Part shown: positions 7,312-21,052 of the stretch, piece after piece
Position numbering within the stretch: position 1 is the stretch's first letter
How the letters are laid out: the number at the start of each line of letters is the position of its first letter
Position numbers and translations under genes: made by a program
Notes under the pieces: generated by a model
What the model saw: the letters and a program-made list of their open reading frames with translations, nothing else
Told to the model about the DNA's origin: nothing
Databases searched by the model: none
Source: an uncultured Bacteroidales bacterium
GTDB taxonomy: Bacteria; Bacteroidota; Bacteroidia; Bacteroidales; UBA932
DNA: 32,834 nucleotides
Assembly: GCA_944325465.1 (NCBI GenBank)
Contig: CALVAE010000115.1
Span: 1 to 32,834, forward strand
Direction of reading: 5' to 3'

Positions 7312-7344
7312 TTTGGCATTTGTAAAGAAAATATTATATCTTTG
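7312..7344 (+). promoter_or_regulatory. Bacteroidota-type promoter of the histidine operon
   Basis: TTTG at 7312-7315 and TATCTTTG at 7337-7344 are separated by 21 nt, a full match to the phylum's primary promoter pattern. Transcription would begin near 7350, giving a leader of about 215 nt before hisG that contains the His-rich peptide and attenuator. Confidence 0.75.
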
Positions 7345-7389
7345 TGAAGTTGTATTTACCGCAATAACTACACAGACTACATTTGACAC

Positions 7390-7443
7390 ATGACAGCAGG
7401 ATTCAGCCATATTCATCATCACGACACAGCCCCCGAGTGGTAG
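7390..7443 (+). CDS. hisL: Histidine operon leader peptide
   Basis: A 17-codon frame, MTAGFSHIHHHDTAPEW then TAG, with His at positions 7, 9, 10 and 11. It lies 40 nt downstream of the predicted transcription start and upstream of an intrinsic terminator and hisG. Dense His codons directly before a his operon are the hallmark of ribosome-mediated attenuation: scarce His-tRNA stalls the ribosome at 7408-7422. The stop codon falls inside GGTAGCC (7439-7445), the segment that can pair with the 5' arm of the terminator. A ribosome completing the peptide would therefore block the antiterminator. The peptide itself is unlikely to have a function. Confidence 0.8.
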   Translation: MTAGFSHIHHHDTAPEW

Positions 7444-7505
7444 CCGTGAAGATAATCATGAATCTGCACATACATGATTAAGGCTTGCCACGAACGGTAA
7501 GCCTT
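7411..7505 (+). promoter_or_regulatory. Attenuator with alternative hairpins upstream of hisG
   Basis: Three competing structures can be drawn. Pause hairpin 1:2: ATTCAT (7411-7416) with ATGAAT (7458-7463), plus TCACG (7419-7423) with CGTGA (7445-7449). Antiterminator 2:3: TAATCATG (7453-7460) with CATGATTA (7473-7480), extended by GGTAGCC (7439-7445) with GGCTTGCC (7482-7489) with one bulged T. Terminator 3:4 uses 7480-7505. Region 1 contains the His codons and region 2 begins at the leader stop codon, as attenuation requires. Confidence 0.7.
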
Positions 7506-7510
7506 TTTTT
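7480..7510 (+). terminator. Intrinsic terminator of the his attenuator
   Basis: AAGGCTTGCC (7480-7489) pairs with GGTAAGCCTT (7496-7505), ten pairs including one G-U, around a six-base loop. A run of seven T follows (7504-7510). It sits 55 nt before the hisG start codon. Confidence 0.85.
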
Positions 7511-7565
7511 GTATGACGCGGAGTGTCGGAACCGTGGCAGCCTGCCGACAAAAAACTTTCACACT

Positions 7566-8417
7566 ATGATACGCATTGCAATCCAGTCAAAAGGACGACT
7601 GAACGAAGACAGCATCCGTCTTCTGTCCGAAGCGGGAATGAAAATAGAGGAATCCAGGAGGAAACTGCTGACCCCGGCAGAGGGATTCCCCCTCGAAGTC
7701 CTGTATCTCAGGGATGACGACATTCCCCAGGCCGTTGCCGACGGGGTCGCGGACATAGGAATAGTGGGACTTAACGAAGTGGAGGAAAGGGACAGGGACG
7801 TGGAAATCGTCCGGAGGCTCGGGTTCGGCAAATGCCGGCTGTCGCTTGCCATACCGAAAGAAGAAGACTACCAGGGTCCCGGATGGTTCGAGGGGAAGAA
7901 AATCGCGACTTCATACCCGGGTATCGTCGGCAGGTATTTCAGGGAAAAGGGCATAAAGGCCAATATAGAAACCATTGCCGGATCCGTCGAAATCGCTCCG
8001 TCGGTGGGGATGGCCGATGCCATCTTCGATATCGTGAGTTCCGGCGGGACCCTTGTCAGCAACGGACTGAAAGAAGTGGAGAAAGTCCTTTTTTCAGAAG
8101 CCGTGCTGATCGGGAACAGGTCCCTGACGGAAGAAAAACGTGGGCTTCTTTCCCAGATGACATTCAGGTTCGAGGCAGTGGAGCGCAGCAGGGGGATGAA
8201 ATACATGCTGATGAACCTCCCGTCAGACAAGGCGGATGAAGCGGTCAGGATACTCCCCGGGATGAAATCTCCCACAATCCTGCCCCTGGCCCAGGAGGGC
8301 TGGTGCTCCCTGCATGCAGCGGTACGCGAGGATGAACTATGGACAAAGATCGGGCAACTGAAAGGGATAGGAGCGGAAGACATACTGGTGCTTTCCCTTG
8401 AAAAGACAATATGGTAG
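7566..8417 (+). CDS. hisG: ATP phosphoribosyltransferase, long form
   Basis: A 283-residue enzyme catalysing the first step of histidine synthesis, PRPP plus ATP to phosphoribosyl-ATP. The start MIRIAIQSKGRL is the canonical HisG N-terminus. A longer frame back to 7485 would run through the attenuator and is rejected. Catalytic-domain motifs include DIGIVGLNEVEE and the PRPP loop around DIVSSGGTLVSNGL. The length and the C-terminal part after about residue 205 (ILPGMKSPTILPLAQEGWCSLHAAV) show the long form with the ACT-like histidine-binding domain, so no HisZ is needed. Feedback inhibition by histidine is expected in addition to attenuation. Confidence 0.96.
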   Translation: MIRIAIQSKGRLNEDSIRLLSEAGMKIEESRRKLLTPAEGFPLEVLYLRDDDIPQAVADGVADIGIVGLNEVEERDRDVEIVRRLGFGKCRLSLAIPKEEDYQGPGWFEGKKIATSYPGIVGRYFREKGIKANIETIAGSVEIAPSVGMADAIFDIVSSGGTLVSNGLKEVEKVLFSEAVLIGNRSLTEEKRGLLSQMTFRFEAVERSRGMKYMLMNLPSDKADEAVRILPGMKSPTILPLAQEGWCSLHAAVREDELWTKIGQLKGIGAEDILVLSLEKTIW

Positions 8418-8420
8418 ACA

Positions 8421-9707
8421 ATGGAGATATTCATCAATCCCGGACGTGACACCTGGAAAAGGCTCACAAGCCGGACAAGGGAAGATGACAGCAGCATCGA
8501 TGAGACAGTCGCTTCTATCATCCGGAGAGTACGGGAAGAGGGTGACGCGGCCCTTTCCGATCTGACGGAAAGGATTGACGGGATAAGGCCTGATTCCCTG
8601 GAAGTCAGCCGGGAAGAAATCCGGGCGGCATCCGGGTCAATCCCGGACAGACTGAAACAGGCTCTGGGACAGGCTGCGGAAAACATCAGGAAATTCCACC
8701 AGGCACAAATGCCTGCTGAAATCAGTATTGAGACCATGCCGGGAATCCGCTGCGTATCCAGACCCGTCCCCATCCGCAGCGCAGGCCTTTATATCCCGGG
8801 AGGCTCGGCACCACTGTTCTCGACCGTACTCATGCTGGTCATACCGGCACAGGTCGCAGGCTGCAGGCAGACCACCCTTTGCACACCACCCGACAGGAAC
8901 GGGAATATCAGCCCTCTCATCCTGTATGCAGCCTCGCTCTGCGGAGTCGGAAGGATTTTCAGAATCGGAGGGGCACAGGCAATCGCCGCAATGGCTTACG
9001 GAACGGAAACAGTTCCCAAGGCAGACAAGATCTTCGGTCCGGGAAACCGCTATGTAACCCGGGCAAAGCAGATGCTAAGTTCGACCGTAGCCATCGATAT
9101 GCCGGCCGGTCCTTCGGAAGTCATGGTCCTGGCGGACGGAAGCGCCAGAGCGGATTTCGTGGCCTCGGACCTTCTCTCCCAGGCGGAACACGGACCTGAC
9201 AGCCAGGTAATGCTGGTATGCAGATCCGTAGAATTCGCGGAAAAGGTAAGGGAGGAAACGGAAGCGGGCCTTGCGCGGCTGCCAAGGAGGGAACTGGCAG
9301 CAAAGGCCCTGGAAAACAGCAGGATCATTGTGATGGACTCTATTGACGATATGGTGGATTTTGCCGACATGTACGCAGCGGAGCACCTGATCATCTCGAT
9401 GAAAGACCCGTGGAAGATTGCATCCAGGATAACGGCTGCCGGAAGTGTCTTCATAGGGAACCATTCCCCTGAAAGCGCAGGCGACTATGCTTCCGGGACC
9501 AATCACACCCTCCCTACTTCCGGATGGGCGGGGTCATACAGCGGAGTGAACACGGAAAGTTTCATGAGAAGGATGACCCTTCAGGAACTTACAAGGGAAG
9601 GACTTGCAGCACTTGGAGACACCATCATGACAATGGCGTCGGCTGAAGGACTGGAAGGACACCGCCGGGCAGTGGAAATCCGGCTCAGGGAGGAACAGGC
9701 AAATTAA
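8421..9707 (+). CDS. hisD: Histidinol dehydrogenase
   Basis: A 428-residue zinc enzyme that oxidises histidinol to histidine in two NAD-dependent steps. Recognisable blocks are [57 protein letters not shown], the zinc/active-site region [15 protein letters not shown], and [12 protein letters not shown] with its conserved His. Length equals the family norm. It starts 3 nt after the hisG stop. Confidence 0.97.
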
Positions 9708-9724
9708 CGGACAGATACTGGAAA

Positions 9725-11380
9725 ATGGAAACACAAGACTTGGAAAGGCTGGTCAGGCCGAACATCCTGTCAATGAGACCGTATTCGACCGCAAGGGACG
9801 AATGCGAGGGCAGGCCCGAAATATTTCTCGATGCCAACGAAAGCCCGTACGGGAACGGATTCAACAGATATCCCGATCCGCACCAGAAACAGTTGAAAGA
9901 AGCGGTTGCAAGAATCAAGGGGACAAGTCCCGACCATATTTTCCTCGGCAACGGAAGCGACGAGGCCATAGACCTTGCATACCGGATATTCTGCAGACCG
10001 GGGATTGACAATGCCGTTTCCATCACGCCCACATACGGGATGTACGGAGTGGCGGCAGCGTGCAATGACACTGAATTCCGGACCGTACCTCTCAGGGAGG
10101 ATTTTTCCCTGGACGAGGAGGCCCTGCTGGCAGCGGCCGATGCCAATACGAAACTGCTGTTCATCTGCTCTCCCAACAACCCCACGGGGAACAGATTCCC
10201 GACATGGCAACTGACCCGCATCATATCTTCTTTCAACGGGATAGTCGTACTGGATGAAGCATACATCGATTTTTCGTCAGAAGAAGGGCTCCTGCCCATG
10301 CTTGGGAGTTTCCCAAACCTCATCATCCTTCAAACCTTCTCGAAAGCATGGGGAATGGCAGGGCTGAGGGTCGGGATGGCATTTGCCTCTCCTTTCATCA
10401 TCCGGCTGTTCTCGAATGTGAAGTACCCGTACAACATCAACGGCCTCACACAGGAAATCGTCCTCAAAAGGATAGAGACGTCCGGACCTGAGACCGGGCC
10501 AGTCATCCGCGAAAGGGAACGGGTCTCCCGGGTCCTGGCAGAATGTCCCGGCATACTGAAGGTCTATCCGTCCGAAGCGAATTTCATTCTGGTAAAATGC
10601 CGGGATCCGAAGGGCCTGTACCGGAAACTGCTCGACAACGGCGTGATAGTCAGGGACAGGTCCGGCATCCCAGGCTGTGAAGGATGTCTGAGGATTACAA
10701 TCGGCACCGGGCCGGAAAACGACAGGATGCTCCACACCGTGACATCCGCTTGCGGCCGGGAGAACCGGGAAGAGGCTTCATCCTCCGGACAGGAAGGAGA
10801 GAGCCGCAACTCCACGGTTTTCAGGGAGACTTCGGAGACCGGGATAGCCGCGATGATGGATCTGGACGGGAAAGGGCCTTCGTTCATATCCACAGGAATA
10901 GGATTTTTCGACCACATGCTCGAACAGATAGCCCGTCACAGCGGCATATCGATGCTGGTCTATGCCAAAGGCGATCTCAATGTAGACGAGCACCATACAA
11001 TAGAGGATGTGGGCATTGTGCTGGGGAAAGCGCTTGCAAAGGCCCTCGGCAGCAAAATCGGAATAGAAAGATACGGATTTGTCCTGCCTATGGACGAAAG
11101 CGAGGCTTCGGTTCTCATCGATCTTGGAGGAAGGACAGACTTCAGATGGGATGCCGAATTCAAACGCGAAAGAATCGGAGACATGCCGACCGAGATGTTC
11201 AGCCATTTCTTCAAAAGCCTCGCGGAATCCGCATGCTGCAACCTGCATGTTTCAGCGACCGGGGAAAACGAGCACCACAAAATCGAAGGCATATTCAAGG
11301 CCTTTGCCAGGGCTCTGAAAATGGCGGTGGCGCACGACCGTTTCCCTTATTCCATTCCCAGCAGCAAAGGAGTCCTGTAA
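9725..11380 (+). CDS. hisC-hisB: Fused histidinol-phosphate aminotransferase and imidazoleglycerol-phosphate dehydratase
   Basis: A 551-residue single frame with two enzymes. Residues 1 to about 338 are His[13 protein letters not shown] near the N-terminus, [20 protein letters not shown] Lys in [15 protein letters not shown], and the closing [16 protein letters not shown] Ser/Glu-rich linker follows (about 340-358). Residues about 359-551 are the IGPD domain of His[22 protein letters not shown], the metal-binding [10 protein letters not shown] and [14 protein letters not shown]. The dehydratase makes imidazole acetol phosphate and the aminotransferase uses it next, so the fusion joins consecutive steps 6 and 7. 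The HAD histidinol-phosphatase half of bifunctional HisB, usual in Bacteroides, is missing. No stop or frameshift separates the parts. Confidence 0.95.
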
Positions 11381-11457
11381 GGCGTAGCAACGGCCTGTCA
11401 TCCGGGATGAAACCGAAAATCAGGCACATGGACCTGCAAAAAGCATAGATAAAAGCA

Positions 11458-12081
11458 ATGAATACAGTCATAATAGATTACGGCACCGGAAACCTGCGTT
11501 CCATCGGGAACGCCCTCAAAAGGATGGGAGCGGAATATCTTGTCTCGTCCGACCCGTCAGACATCCTGTCCGCGGACAGGGTCATACTGCCTGGAGTAGG
11601 AGAAGCCTCTTCCGCAATGAAAAGGCTTCTGGACACGGGACTCGACAGGGTTATCCCGTCATTGAAGCAGCCCGTACTCGGAATCTGCATCGGAATGCAG
11701 TTGATGTGCCGTTCCAGCGAAGAGGGGAAGACGGAATGTCTGGGAATATTCCGCACCGAAGTCAGAAGACTCTCTCCTGCACATCCGTCCATGAAACTGA
11801 AAATTCCGGAAATGGGATGGAACAATATCAGAATGGAAACGGACGGACAGGACGGGAAACAGGAACCGTGTCCTCTTTTCAAAGGGATTCCGGATGGAAG
11901 TTACGTCTATTACGTCCATTCGTTCGCTCCTGACATCTGCCAGGATACGGTTGCGGTTACGGAATACGGACATCCTTTCAGCGCCGCCCTCGACAGGGAC
12001 AATTTCTTCGGAACACAGTTCCATCCCGAAAAAAGCGGGAAGACAGGACAACGGATACTTGAAAATTTCCTTGGGCTATGA
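11458..12081 (+). CDS. hisH: Imidazole glycerol phosphate synthase, glutaminase subunit
   Basis: A 207-residue class I glutamine amidotransferase that supplies ammonia to HisF. The nucleophile is Cys77 in GICIGMQLM, and the His-Glu pair is in TQFHPEKSG near residue 190. The start IDYGTGNLRSI is canonical. It lies 77 nt after the hisC-hisB fusion, the largest gap in the operon, and its stop overlaps the hisA start as ATGA. Confidence 0.96.
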   Translation: MNTVIIDYGTGNLRSIGNALKRMGAEYLVSSDPSDILSADRVILPGVGEASSAMKRLLDTGLDRVIPSLKQPVLGICIGMQLMCRSSEEGKTECLGIFRTEVRRLSPAHPSMKLKIPEMGWNNIRMETDGQDGKQEPCPLFKGIPDGSYVYYVHSFAPDICQDTVAVTEYGHPFSAALDRDNFFGTQFHPEKSGKTGQRILENFLGL

Positions 12082-12836
12082 TACAGATAATACCTGCAAT
12101 GGACATAATCTCAGGAGAATGCGTCCGCCTTACAAAAGGAGACTACTCCACACGGAAATCATATTCCGGCAACCCTCTTGAAATGGCGGAACGGTTCTGC
12201 GGTGCAGGACTGAAAAGGCTGCACATCGTCGACCTGGACGGAGCCAGAGCCTCTTTTCCTGAAAACCTGCATATCCTGGAAAAAATCATATCCCGCACCG
12301 GGATGGAAATAGAATGGGGTGGAGGGATAAAGAACCGGCAGGCACTGGACGCAGTTCTGGACAGCGGAGCATCCCAGGCGATATGCGGAAGCATTGCGGT
12401 CTCGGATCCTGACGAATTCAGGACGTGGCTTTCGGAATACGGGCCGGACCGGATAATCCTCGGAGCGGATGTTCGCAATGGGATGATCGCCACGCACGGA
12501 TGGATGCAGGACTCGTCCGTATCGGTAGAAGACCTTGTGGAAAGGTTCCTTCCTTTCGGGCTTTCAAGGGTAATATGTACTGACATCGCCTGTGACGGAA
12601 TGCTCTGCGGGCCATCTCTCGGACTGTATGCCGGCCTTCTCCGACGCTTCCCGGAGTTGGGACTGACTGCCAGCGGAGGCATAGGGTCCATGGAGGATAT
12701 CATCAGTCTCGACAGGACGGGAATCGGCAGCGTCATCGTAGGCAAGGCCATCTATGAAGGAAGAATCTCCCTGGAAGAGATAGAAGAATTCAACAGCAAA
12801 CAGGAAAATTCAGGAAAATGCTCGCGAGAAGAATAA
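12078..12836 (+). CDS. hisA: Phosphoribosylformimino-AICAR ribotide isomerase
   Basis: A 252-residue TIM barrel catalysing the Amadori rearrangement of ProFAR to PRFAR. IIPAMDIISGECVRL carries the first catalytic Asp (Asp9), LGADVRNG the second, and WGGGIKN plus ASGGIGS the phosphate-binding loops. It overlaps hisH by 4 bp and hisF by 19 bp, so hisH, hisA and hisF are probably translationally coupled. Confidence 0.95.
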   Translation: MIQIIPAMDIISGECVRLTKGDYSTRKSYSGNPLEMAERFCGAGLKRLHIVDLDGARASFPENLHILEKIISRTGMEIEWGGGIKNRQALDAVLDSGASQAICGSIAVSDPDEFRTWLSEYGPDRIILGADVRNGMIATHGWMQDSSVSVEDLVERFLPFGLSRVICTDIACDGMLCGPSLGLYAGLLRRFPELGLTASGGIGSMEDIISLDRTGIGSVIVGKAIYEGRISLEEIEEFNSKQENSGKCSREE

Positions 12837-13579
12837 TACCCTGCCTTGATATCAGGGACGGAGTCACCGTAAAGGGGACCAATTTCCTCGGACTTCGCAG
12901 TGTCGGGGATCCGGTGGAAATGGCAGCGGAATACGCCGGGGAAGGCGCAGACGAACTGGTCTGTCTGGATATAAGCGCCACTCTGGAAGGGAGGAAAACG
13001 TTTGCCTCGCTCGTGGAAAGAATCGCCGGAACCATTGATATCCCGTTTACGGTCGGCGGAGGAATCGCATCGGCCGAAGACGCGGGAAGACTGCTTCTGG
13101 CAGGAGCGGACAAGGTCTCTGTCAACAGCGCCGCCGTACGCAGGCCGCAACTGATAGACGAGATCGCTTCAAGATACGGGAGCCAGTTCGTCGTAGTGGC
13201 AATCGACGCCAGACGTATCGGGGACAGATGGACAGTCACGACCCACAGCGGCAGCCGGACGACAGACAGGGAACTCTTCTCCTGGGCCATGGAGGCTGAA
13301 GAAAGAGGGGCGGGTGAGATACTGTTCACATCAATGGACAATGATGGGACCGGGAAAGGATATCCGTGCGGGACTTTTGCGGCCCTTTCGGAAATGCTGG
13401 ACATTCCCGTCATCGCATCCGGGGGTGCAGGATCGGTTGAAGACATAGCGGAAGTCCTCACCGCAGGCAAGGCAGACGCCGCCCTTGCCGCCAGCATCTT
13501 CCATTACGGAAAGGTCAGCATACCGCAACTGAAGGCAGCCCTTGCGTCCGCCGGGATTCCGGTACGTCCCGCACCGTAA
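12818..13579 (+). CDS. hisF: Imidazole glycerol phosphate synthase, cyclase subunit
   Basis: A 253-residue TIM barrel that uses ammonia from HisH to convert PRFAR to imidazoleglycerol phosphate and AICAR. RIIPCLDIRDGVTVKGTNF holds catalytic Asp11, VVAIDARR the second Asp, and VGGGI and IASGGAG the two phosphate-binding loops. It starts inside the 3' end of hisA. Confidence 0.96.
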   Translation: MLARRIIPCLDIRDGVTVKGTNFLGLRSVGDPVEMAAEYAGEGADELVCLDISATLEGRKTFASLVERIAGTIDIPFTVGGGIASAEDAGRLLLAGADKVSVNSAAVRRPQLIDEIASRYGSQFVVVAIDARRIGDRWTVTTHSGSRTTDRELFSWAMEAEERGAGEILFTSMDNDGTGKGYPCGTFAALSEMLDIPVIASGGAGSVEDIAEVLTAGKADAALAASIFHYGKVSIPQLKAALASAGIPVRPAP

Positions 13580-13629
13580 AGGCTCCGTCACATCCCGTTA
13601 TTCCTGACAAACATCAAAACATACGCTAT

Positions 13630-14271
13630 ATGATACGGTTCGAAGAATTGAATACTGCAAAAAGCAGTGAAGGCCTTGTCCCGGCAATCATCCAGGATGA
13701 TACGACATTGGCAGTACTGATGCTCGGATATATGGACAGGGAGGCTCTGGAAAAGACACAGAAAGAAGGAAAGGTGACTTTTTACAGCCGCTCCAAAGGA
13801 AGGCTGTGGACAAAAGGGGAAACAAGCGGCAATTTTCTGGATGTGGTGTCCATTGCGGAAGACTGCGATTCCGATTCGCTCCTGATAAGGGTCATCCCAC
13901 ACGGACCGGTATGCCACACCGGAACCAGAAGCTGTTTCGCAGATGAGGATACCAGGCGGAAAGTCGCCGGAGGTGAAAAGGAATACTGTACGGAAGGATT
14001 CATCAGAGAACTCGCGAAAGTCATACGCCAGCGGCACACGGATATGCCGGAAGGCTCCTATACATCAAGGCTGTTCAGCAAAGGGACTCCGAAAATCGCC
14101 CAGAAAGTCGGGGAAGAAGCCGTCGAGACTGTCATAGAGGCGGTTGCCGGGAACAGGGACGCCCTGATATACGAGGCCTCGGATCTGGTATATCATCTGC
14201 TGGTCCTTCTCGAAGCCACCGGTTGCTCCATTTCCGACCTTGAAAAGGAACTTGAACGGAGACACCGCTGA
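13630..14271 (+). CDS. hisIE: Bifunctional phosphoribosyl-AMP cyclohydrolase / phosphoribosyl-ATP pyrophosphatase
   Basis: A 213-residue fusion for steps 2 and 3. The N-terminal cyclohydrolase (about 1-115) has LMLGYMDREAL, FYSRSKGRLWTKGETSGN and the zinc motif CHTGTRSCF. The C-terminal pyrophosphohydrolase (about 120-213) is all-alpha with GTPKIAQKVGEEAVETVIEA and YEASDLVYHLLVLL carrying the Mg-binding acids. This fusion is usual in Bacteroidota. It is the last gene of the operon, 50 nt after hisF. No intrinsic terminator is evident before the repeat island. Confidence 0.97.
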   Translation: MIRFEELNTAKSSEGLVPAIIQDDTTLAVLMLGYMDREALEKTQKEGKVTFYSRSKGRLWTKGETSGNFLDVVSIAEDCDSDSLLIRVIPHGPVCHTGTRSCFADEDTRRKVAGGEKEYCTEGFIRELAKVIRQRHTDMPEGSYTSRLFSKGTPKIAQKVGEEAVETVIEAVAGNRDALIYEASDLVYHLLVLLEATGCSISDLEKELERRHR

Positions 14272-19357: not shown

Positions 19358-21052
19358 TTAGGGGTCAAAGGTAATATTTTTATTTCTGAAAATGCTGCCG
19401 GCAACATGTAATTTTTCCGATTCCGCCCCGTCGGATATCCGGAAAATCCTGTCCGATCCGATTGCAGCCAGTGCGGTACAGTGCGCCGCACCTTCCCTGA
19501 TGTCATGGGTCGAGAAGAGCACCGCTGTCCCTGTACGGGAAGGAAGTTCCTGCAGAAGGGATAGTATCCCCGTCCTGTTTTCCGCATCCAGAAAAGCCGT
19601 AGGCTCGTCCAGAAGTATTATGTCCGCCTGCCTGCAGAGGGCGGATGCAATGCACCCTTTCTGGAATTCACCGTCGCTCAAGGTGGAAATATCCCTGTCC
19701 TTCAGACAGGTTATGCGCAGTTTGCACATGGCATCCTCCAGTCTCGCGGTCTCTTCATCAGACAGTCTTCCATCCCGGTCTCCGGTCAGACGGATGAATT
19801 CTTCGAGAGTGAATCCCCGTACCTTTGGAATTCCCGAAGGGATCATGACGGCCCTGACTTTCCCCTGCCTGTCACACTCCGCCGCCATTGCCCGCAGCAA
19901 TGTCGTCTTGCCGCTTCCGTTGGCTCCGCAAAGAAGAATGCAGTCCTGCCTTTTTATCCTGAAAGTTATTCCGGAGCACAGCGCCTTGCCTCCGTATCCT
20001 ATGGACATATCGTTGATATCCAGAAGTGTGTCCTTATCAGGCCTGTCTGCAACCGGATTCCCGCCGGGAGTACGGACGGAATGATCAGGGCTGACGGAAA
20101 CGGCACTCCCGGAACGGCCGGCACCTCCCCGTATCATTATATACAGAATAGCCGGTATTCCTATCAAGGCCATGGTACTGCCTGTCGGCAAAGGTGTCGG
20201 GGTCAGATGAGACATGATATCCGCGAAAACTCCGAGAATGCCTCCGCAGACAAGGCTTGCCGGAAGGACGTACCGGTGTACGGATGTACCTGCAAGTTTC
20301 CTCGCGATATGGGGAGCCACGATTCCGACAAAGCCAAGGGGGCCGCAGAACGCAGTGACAGCACCCGTAACCAGACAGCAGCCTGCCAGCGCTATCCACC
20401 TTATCCTTCGCGGAGAAACGCCGGAGAGGGCTGCATAATCATCTCCGAACAGCAGGATATCCAATCCCCTGGCATTGCGGGAAGCGACAAGACATCCGGC
20501 AATTCCCGCAAGCGCGATTATCACCATTCCGTCATATCCGCAGTTCATGAAACTTCCCGCTGCCCAACTGAAATAAAGCCTGAGACTGTCCGGAGCGGCC
20601 CATGCCTGCAGGACGGACGTGACTGCACTCAGTGCGAATCCGGCCATCACTCCGAATATCAGCAAAGTATATGTCCCCCTGACCCTACTTGAGATATACA
20701 TGATGAGAAGAGAGGCCAGCAATGCACCGGCAGCAGCGGCAGACACCACAGACAGCCCGCCGGCAATTCCGGAAAGGCCGGCCCCTCCGGCAAGAGTCAC
20801 GATTGCGGCTCCCAGGCCTGCCCCTGAACTGACTCCCATGATGTGGGGATCGGCAAGCGGATTCCTGAATACGGCCTGCATCTGCGCCCCGACCAGACCG
20901 AGCAGGCTCCCCGCCAGCAGTGCAGTCAGGGCACGAGGCACACGCAGAAGCCGGAACACTTCAGCGGGCGCATTCCCCCCGACAAGGATATCGCCGGCAA
21001 AAAGCACTGCCAGAACCGAAACGGAGGCTATGAACAATCTCTTCCTTTTCAT
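19358..21052 (-). CDS. Fused FecCD/BtuC-type permease and ABC ATPase (iron-chelate or corrinoid importer)
   Basis: A 564-residue single frame. Residues 1 to about 315 form a multi-span FecCD/BtuC permease: LLRVPRALTALLAGSLLGLVGAQMQAVFRNPLADPHIMGVSSGAGLGA, FGDDYAALSGV, FVGIVAPHIAR and LPTGSTMALIGIPA are signature blocks. After a hydrophilic linker (about 316-342), an ATPase domain follows, with Walker A GANGSGKTT, signature LSDGE (LSGGQ is usual), Walker B IILLDEP and the switch His in FSTHD. The usual Q-loop Gln is not evident (AVMIPSGIP). Permease and ATPase of this importer class are normally separate genes, so the fusion is notable. No substrate-binding lipoprotein or TonB receptor is adjacent, leaving the substrate undefined. 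Confidence 0.92.
   Translation of the reverse strand: MKRKRLFIASVSVLAVLFAGDILVGGNAPAEVFRLLRVPRALTALLAGSLLGLVGAQMQAVFRNPLADPHIMGVSSGAGLGAAIVTLAGGAGLSGIAGGLSVVSAAAAGALLASLLIMYISSRVRGTYTLLIFGVMAGFALSAVTSVLQAWAAPDSLRLYFSWAAGSFMNCGYDGMVIIALAGIAGCLVASRNARGLDILLFGDDYAALSGVSPRRIRWIALAGCCLVTGAVTAFCGPLGFVGIVAPHIARKLAGTSVHRYVLPASLVCGGILGVFADIMSHLTPTPLPTGSTMALIGIPAILYIMIRGGAGRSGSAVSVSPDHSVRTPGGNPVADRPDKDTLLDINDMSIGYGGKALCSGITFRIKRQDCILLCGANGSGKTTLLRAMAAECDRQGKVRAVMIPSGIPKVRGFTLEEFIRLTGDRDGRLSDEETARLEDAMCKLRITCLKDRDISTLSDGEFQKGCIASALCRQADIILLDEPTAFLDAENRTGILSLLQELPSRTGTAVLFSTHDIREGAAHCTALAAIGSDRIFRISDGAESEKLHVAGSIFRNKNITFDP
19366..19373 (-). promoter_or_regulatory. Putative -7 element for polA
   Basis: TACCTTTG on the minus strand, about 31 nt before the polA ATG and just upstream of the permease fusion's stop codon on that strand. 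No TTTG is found at the usual upstream distance, so the call rests on half a promoter. Confidence 0.4.

Follow-up and report, generated by a model that had tools for sequence, protein, structure and literature searches.

The his operon examined here is preceded by a short frame rich in histidine codons and by hairpins that share strands, and the question it raises is whether a ribosome on that frame decides if transcription proceeds into the operon. The locus lies in a 32,834-nucleotide stretch of DNA, which we call the window. The nearest named HisG to that of the window belongs to Candidatus Cryptobacteroides intestinavium (86% identical), which suggests that the window derives from a member of the Bacteroidales. 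The hisG gene, of the long form, occupies positions 7566-8417 of the plus strand (Pfam HisG, E=1.5e-51; HisG_C, 1.5e-24), and the rest of the operon follows on the same strand at 8421-14271 with hisD, a hisC-hisB fusion, hisH, hisA, hisF and hisIE, identified by Pfam; the two His_biosynth genes were assigned to hisA and hisF by gene order. On the minus strand, divergent from the his leader, lie an M20 peptidase gene and lysine/diaminopimelate genes. A single open reading frame of 551 aa (9725-11380) joins a hisC-like aminotransferase to the part of hisB that encodes imidazoleglycerol-phosphate dehydratase and leaves little space for the hisN phosphatase; hisNB is recorded in all the Bacteroidetes considered in the available text of PMC8305728. 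Further along the window, on the minus strand (19358-21052), FecCD permease and ABC ATPase domains are fused in a single 564-aa frame.

The region upstream of hisG, all on the plus strand, begins with a promoter of the Bacteroidota type at 7312-7344 (TTTG at 7312-7315, a 21-nt gap and TATCTTTG at 7337-7344), which we take to be a match to the -33/-7 pattern of this phylum and which would place the transcription start near 7350. The leader frame at 7390-7443 has 17 codons, encodes MTAGFSHIHHHDTAPEW and ends in a TAG stop at 7441-7443; His-rich frames lie upstream of hisG in relatives as well. Its putative regulatory codons at 7408-7422 (CAT ATT CAT CAT CAC), compared with those of close relatives, read His-Ile-His-His-His and place His at leader codons 7, 9, 10 and 11. 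Segment 2, the 5' strand of the antiterminator, is GUGGUAGCC at 7437-7445, overlaps the stop codon and is recognized by duplex energy and covariation. Segment 3 (7480-7491) serves in two helices, as the 5' arm of the terminator (7480-7489) and as the 3' strand of the antiterminator (7482-7491), and segment 4 (7496-7510), which covaries in relatives, comprises the 3' arm of the terminator (7496-7505) and the T-run. The terminator arms AAGGCTTGCC and GGTAAGCCTT form a hairpin of -15.1 kcal/mol; they are followed by seven T ending at 7510, the first two of them paired, and the hisG start lies 55 nt beyond the T-run. An inner helix of the antiterminator at 7454-7479 (AAUCAUG, 7454-7460, with CAUGAUU, 7473-7479) is paired in the predicted fold of the His-stalled leader, while the minimum free energy fold of the untranslated leader contains a 1:2 structure at 7396-7467, in which 7396-7423 pairs with 7443-7467. 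A preliminary description of this DNA had reported a consensus promoter, then a 17-codon frame with His at these four codons and a stop codon inside segment 2. Sequence and translation bear this out, and every element it named lies where it had placed it.

To see how widely the leader occurs, we collected 240 regions upstream of hisG, drawn from the genus and family of the window, from named genomes and from a sample of the phylum, of which 217 were distinct and 215 had at least 180 nt. The family contributed through 178 of 398 genomes with a HisG match at E 1e-30, and the phylum sample through 331 of 395 genomes with a HisG match, the upstream regions of 69 entering the main set and 30 more being examined apart; the 80 loci from named genomes left 59 separate rows after removal of duplicates and short regions. 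Under a strict rule (an ATG-initiated frame no longer than 60 codons, at least three His in five codons, within 260 nt of hisG), a His-clustered frame is present in 173 of the 215 regions. Dinucleotide shuffles yield 3.6 such regions and the reverse strand 3, and the same test on the 215 regions brings none of the remaining 19 amino acids close to His (Asn, for instance, gives 9 against 4.6). A looser rule (any start codon, three His in six codons, 340 nt) finds a leader in 187 regions and none in 28, the shuffle control applying to the strict count, and a few of the 187, such as L102 and L173, are doubtful.

By this looser rule the leader is found at 42 of 45 loci of the same genus, 39 of 41 from other genera of the family, 4 of 5 from other families of the order, 42 of 43 from other orders of the class, 16 of 21 from other classes and 43 of the 59 named loci, in addition to the window itself. 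The conservation of His codons in close relatives that the preliminary description had expected is thus found, and its presentation of the leader as a feature of one member of the Bacteroidota proves too narrow. Five loci from other classes (L189, L190, L213, L214 and L215) have a His-rich frame without a good terminator. The 30 loci examined apart carry a divergent HisG (27-37% identity); two of them have a clear leader (L266 and L270) and a third, L241, has a doubtful TTG frame. Since leaders are common in the main set and rare among these 30, the element appears to follow one HisG lineage, chiefly in Bacteroidia. Three loci (L066, L094 and L044) have leaders that look degenerate by eye, with the terminator retained and the His frame lost or thinned. 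One genome of the genus (L293) carries two copies of the his attenuator, at 150-264 and 1718-1831; behind the upstream copy stand what appear by eye to be the opening bases of a hisG copy, followed by a frame with aspartyl protease and PDZ domains.

The 187 leaders use both His codons (CAT 695 times, CAC 286 times), so what is conserved is not a single nucleotide repeat. The fixed first and second positions of these codons were dropped as evidence, as they follow from choosing the leaders for His. Outside the His codons the leader peptide varies greatly among loci. The promoter is also widespread: 131 of 184 loci have TAnnTTTG in the 140 nt that precede the leader start, compared with 12.6 in mononucleotide shuffles. 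Sequences resembling a Shine-Dalgarno motif show no excess before the leader (10 of 160 loci, 12.1 by shuffling), in line with the initiation without Shine-Dalgarno pairing that the consulted parts of PMC9976891 and PMC3155529 report as the rule in Bacteroidota.

A terminator-like hairpin lies between the leader and hisG at 179 of the 187 loci, and at 172 of them it reaches -7 kcal/mol or lower and has a T-rich tail. These hairpins bear on the strongest of the alternatives, namely that control is exerted mainly on the translation of hisG, or on reinitiation there, and not on the termination of transcription. This alternative has a precedent in some attenuators elsewhere, described in the text available for PMC9413887, which do not terminate transcription but hide the region where the first gene starts. 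The widespread hairpin with its T-rich tail, and the 55 nt that separate the T-run from the hisG start in the window, speak against it, and we regard it as very improbable. We prefer ribosome-mediated attenuation of transcription, in which the terminator is opposed by a second helix. For the comparison of the two helices we retained the 161 of the 187 loci with a terminator of -10 kcal/mol or lower, at least 4 T in the next 8 nt and a span below 45; the close relatives L003 and L005 were left out because a longer hairpin was picked there, and the element is still present in both.

Segment 2 of the window forms a duplex of -13.6 kcal/mol with 7482-7491. Taken alone, this 2:3 duplex is better than about 97% of shuffles (p 0.03); of the 161 loci, 45 have an antiterminator duplex that does not outdo shuffles at p 0.05. 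A MAFFT alignment was made of 40 of these loci, the window together with loci chiefly of its own genus, and the structures were named from row L148. The antiterminator is paired in 90.6% of the cells of this alignment, against 31-45% in slid controls, and the terminator in 95.9%, against 22-59%. For both helices the percentage paired and the covariation score exceed all 500 shuffles, a result that related rows can produce without structure. Pairs changed on both sides number 2 in the antiterminator, with 1.1 expected by shuffling (63 of 500 shuffles reach this value; 59 of 500 for further pair types), and 5 in the terminator, with 3.2 expected (18 of 500; 194 of 500 for further pair types). 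The covariation of stems that the preliminary description had proposed to look for is therefore present in the terminator and the antiterminator alike.

Over larger distances segments 2, 3 and 4 change together; in one part of this comparison the partners were chosen by energy, which leans towards pairing. Loci with terminator arms of one type (CTTACC/CTTGCC, labelled Bacteroidales-type in our analysis) and of another (CCCGTTTGAG, labelled Flavobacteria-type) each have their own segment 2. The mean duplex energy of a Bacteroidales-type segment 2 is -11.9 kcal/mol with its own arm, -9.6 with the arms of other loci of its type and -7.0 with those of the other type; the corresponding values for the Flavobacteria-type are -11.4, -9.3 and -7.3 kcal/mol. 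Both alternative helices thus appear to be under selection, as far as comparison of sequences can tell. A profile of the element, built partly from the window, finds one strong site in the genome of the window, which is the window itself (two others, at E 0.66 and 0.70, were ignored). In the genus, under stricter filters, it finds the element at E 0.01 in 53 of 121 genomes and in 29 of 53 among the more complete ones, counts that include the many genomes without hisG.

The position of the antiterminator relative to the His codons is nearly constant. When the 161 loci are anchored at the last His codon, complementarity to the terminator arm peaks in a 16-nt stretch centred at +21 nt, with a mean duplex energy of -12.6 kcal/mol, and drops to -3 to -4 kcal/mol about 18 nt to either side. 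Among 85 non-redundant loci the peak is -12.3 kcal/mol with the locus's own arm and -9.3 kcal/mol with the arms of other loci, the own arm being better in 77 of the 85. Counted from the first base of the last His codon, the 5' edge of the antiterminator lies at a median of 16 nt (quartiles 14 and 17; 14 and 19 around the same median in the 85 non-redundant loci), at 17 nt in the window, and at 11 nt or more at 144 of the 161 loci. A ribosome whose A site holds a given codon extends about 12 nt beyond the first base of that codon. Segment 2 would therefore begin just beyond a ribosome stalled on the last His codon.

The stop codon was tried as a ruler and rejected, since the peak anchored on it is -8.9 kcal/mol compared with -12.6 kcal/mol for the last His codon. 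At 33 of the 161 loci, mostly with longer-tailed leaders, no duplex of -8 kcal/mol or lower is found around the stop, and the distance from the last His codon to the stop varies from 4 to 16 codons (10th to 90th percentile), so the place of the stop codon is secondary. The location of the stop within segment 2, to which the preliminary description drew attention, thus holds for the window and gives way, as a general rule, to the better conserved distance between the His codons and segment 2. One lineage (L006-L008, L010, L013, L014, L016 and similar loci) has leaders of about 29 codons with segment 2 inside the frame, where translation would continue past segment 2 to a stop nearer the terminator; it retains the spacing from the His codons to segment 2, which is 14 nt in L006 and L013.

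The RNA of positions 7350-7515 folds at -41.4 kcal/mol (z=-3.28), and none of 200 shuffles is as stable. We modelled the states of the leader as equilibrium folds in which a 30-nt ribosome footprint is blocked and the RNA is cut before the 3' arm of the terminator. The number of 2:3 pairs expected in the window is 0.38 for the free RNA, rises to 9.9 when a ribosome occupies the last His codon and is 0.5 when it sits on the stop codon, where its blocking of segment 2 is partly built into the model. At least five antiterminator pairs are expected at 149 of the 161 loci when the ribosome is stalled on His, at 16 when it is on the stop codon and at 65 when the leader is free. The expectation thus fails at 12 loci in the His-stalled state, and the pairs persist at 16 with a ribosome at the stop. 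The 1:2 structure is the predicted free fold of the window. Our search for a conserved 1:2 helix across the 161 loci gave little: complementarity between segments 1 and 2 is only modestly above that of shuffled controls and departs from them most at the His codons (-7.8 against -6.1 kcal/mol), and 65 of the free leaders already favour 2:3. The three states of an attenuator that had been proposed from the window alone are supported by its predicted folds; the 1:2 state is weakly conserved, and the free state is not uniformly protected across the phylum.

We consider it very likely, from the comparison of sequences and the modelled folds, that the his leader controls its operon by ribosome-mediated attenuation of transcription. 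The polymerase would start near 7350 and a ribosome would translate the 17-codon leader behind it. When charged tRNA-His is short, this ribosome would stall on 7408-7422 with its leading edge just short of segment 2 (7437-7445), which could then pair with segment 3 (7482-7491) before the 3' arm of the terminator is made, allowing read-through into the his genes. With histidine plentiful, a ribosome reaching the stop at 7441 would cover segment 2, segments 3 and 4 would pair, and transcription would end near 7510. If the leader were not translated, the 1:2 structure predicted in the RNA of the window would leave segment 3 free for the terminator. The reading of this leader as an attenuator in the preliminary description is therefore strengthened by the conservation of His-rich leaders and by the covariation of terminator and antiterminator.

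Leaders of similar design precede other amino-acid genes in the same genus. A genome of the genus (L295) has a Thr-rich leader at 142-204, MRFNLTTTTTTTTGQFYWHG followed by a stop, with eight consecutive Thr codons; a terminator comes next, and the gene behind is a GHMP kinase gene resembling homoserine kinase. Computed in the same way as for his, the antiterminator edge of this leader is 14 nt downstream of the last Thr codon (shuffle p 0.014). Another (L297) has a Phe/Tyr-rich leader at 70-126, MNTRFSAYGYFYFYFPEG followed by a stop, with a terminator before a prephenate dehydratase gene and an antiterminator edge 18 nt after the last Phe codon (shuffle p 0.046); both spacings resemble that of his and speak for attenuation there. 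The genome of the window itself has a Leu-rich leader, MNSRFSLLSLLLWNLSERTPEDRGA followed by a stop, and a terminator before a leuA-like gene (HMGL-like, 4.9e-92) on the minus strand of contig G000:C59 (L278, 1042-965), together with a promoter-like box, TAAATTTG. Here the antiterminator edge is 22 nt after the last clustered Leu codon (shuffle p 0.16), which fits the spacing poorly and does not exceed chance; a spacing estimated by eye for this leader was not borne out by the computed edge. A Leu-clustered ATG frame precedes the leuA-like gene at 10 of 30 family loci, some of them likely by chance, and the leu case is, by its spacing and shuffle p, the weakest of the three. In the genome of the window, which is 82.8% complete, trpE was not found, and the homoserine dehydrogenase gene stands by eye close behind another gene, without a leader.

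These leaders also weigh on the idea that the product of the short frame is a functional His-rich microprotein, such as a metal-binding one, with the hairpins as the ordinary terminator of its gene. The presence of the frame at 173 of 215 loci would suit such a protein. The great variation of the peptide outside its His residues would not, a free protein leaves unexplained both the location of the frame before hisG and the nearly fixed distance from the last His codon to the antiterminator, and frames rich in Thr and in Phe/Tyr stand before the GHMP kinase and prephenate dehydratase genes of the same genus; we give this idea very little credence. Hardly any weight attaches either to control by a ligand- or tRNA-binding RNA (a T-box or riboswitch) or by a DNA-binding repressor, with the frame incidental: T-boxes and the HisR repressor do control his genes in Firmicutes, according to the text available for PMC9413887, but the frame is far above chance, no Rfam family, T-box included, matches the window at its gathering score, and a relaxed threshold returns two chance-level matches, both to snoRNA families.

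Beyond this operon, we somewhat favour the view that Bacteroidota use ribosome-timed attenuators on the scale of the phylum under one spacing rule, in which the antiterminator starts immediately beyond the reach of a ribosome held at the last regulatory codon. Such attenuators would control his in nearly all sampled Bacteroidia that have this HisG, and within the genus of the window they would extend to leaders for Thr, Phe/Tyr and probably Leu. The poor spacing of the leu leader and the dropped codon argument lowered our confidence very slightly, both in this wider reading and in attenuation at his. If it holds, transcription and translation would be kinetically coupled on leaders in a phylum mostly without Shine-Dalgarno pairing. 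Classical attenuation needs a ribosome that keeps pace with RNA polymerase, and the apparently wide attenuation of his in Bacteroidia would thus be evidence for coupling where initiation is independent of Shine-Dalgarno pairing. The his leader would be a ready natural reporter for testing such coupling, attenuation would explain the regulation of his in abundant gut and environmental bacteria, and the his leaders point to many short leader peptides. The element also defines an RNA family beyond the reach of the Rfam His_leader.

Leader-peptide attenuation is already known as a kind of control, and Bacteroidetes/Chlorobi are reportedly among the groups with candidate attenuators in the work of Vitreschak (2004). 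Our search of the literature, outside which lay Vitreschak 2004 and the supplement of PMC9723704, found little on attenuation in Bacteroidota and no account of a his leader across the phylum; in the portions of the papers covered, neither its breadth nor the spacing rule is described. The closest precedent is in Flavobacterium psychrophilum, where the available text of PMC9723704 reports strong clues for leader-peptide attenuation before amino-acid operons and a structured element upstream of hisG that occurs in other genera of Flavobacteriaceae. That element precedes the same gene in the same phylum and, like the window, has no Rfam match, and it is probably the same element in another order; the text examined gives no His leader, antiterminator, spacing or phylum-wide distribution for it. 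A structured hisG element and signs of leader-peptide attenuation are therefore already in print for the phylum; the breadth is what stands out here. Leader-like sORFs have been noted in Bacteroides thetaiotaomicron (PMC7366714, in part), and the accessible text of PMC8305728, on the his genes of the superphylum, brings up attenuation a single time, in connection with S. enterica and E. coli. In 2010 the authors of PMC2965389 stated, in the part available, that to their knowledge no leader-peptide system apart from ermC had been shown outside Proteobacteria and Actinobacteria, and added one from bacilli. The his attenuators of the Bacillus cereus group, Eubacteriales and Erysipelotrichales described in PMC9413887 have 3-5 consecutive His codons, a terminator and an antiterminator, and are not RF00514; they come from 17 genomes of another phylum, and Bacteroid, Chlorobi and Flavobacter are absent from the text examined.

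Under stricter filters the Rfam model RF00514 (His_leader) scores over its cut-off in none of 148 Bacteroidota genomes, with weak matches in 5; it has no match in the window, and of its controls, E. coli and C. glutamicum, both were matched, one of them over the cut-off. The window resembles E. coli hisL in its short His-rich peptide, in a terminator before hisG and in antitermination that depends on a stalled ribosome, which the literature describes for E. coli and which we infer here. The E. coli/Salmonella logic invoked in the preliminary description would carry over for the His leader, the terminator and the antiterminator, and the layout differs as far as it was compared. In E. coli hisL the antiterminator strand lies far downstream of the His codons, which act on it through an intermediate hairpin in a relay of segments A-F. 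There the terminator arm finds its best match (-15.4 kcal/mol) about 51 nt downstream of the last His codon, and a second at 15-18 nt (-11.5 kcal/mol) makes the difference from the Bacteroidota layout incomplete. The Bacteroidota his leaders, in contrast, peak once, at +21 nt, and their energy at +51 is about -3 kcal/mol. Attenuators of the trp and pheA type have four segments that pair as 1:2, 2:3 and 3:4, and their stop codon falls within segment 2 or close to it. In its predicted folds the window follows the same four-segment plan for a different amino acid in a different phylum, a likeness drawn at the level of layout. In Bacteroidota, unlike in E. coli hisL as far as the two were compared, segment 2 adjoins the His codons and has the terminator arm as its immediate pairing partner.
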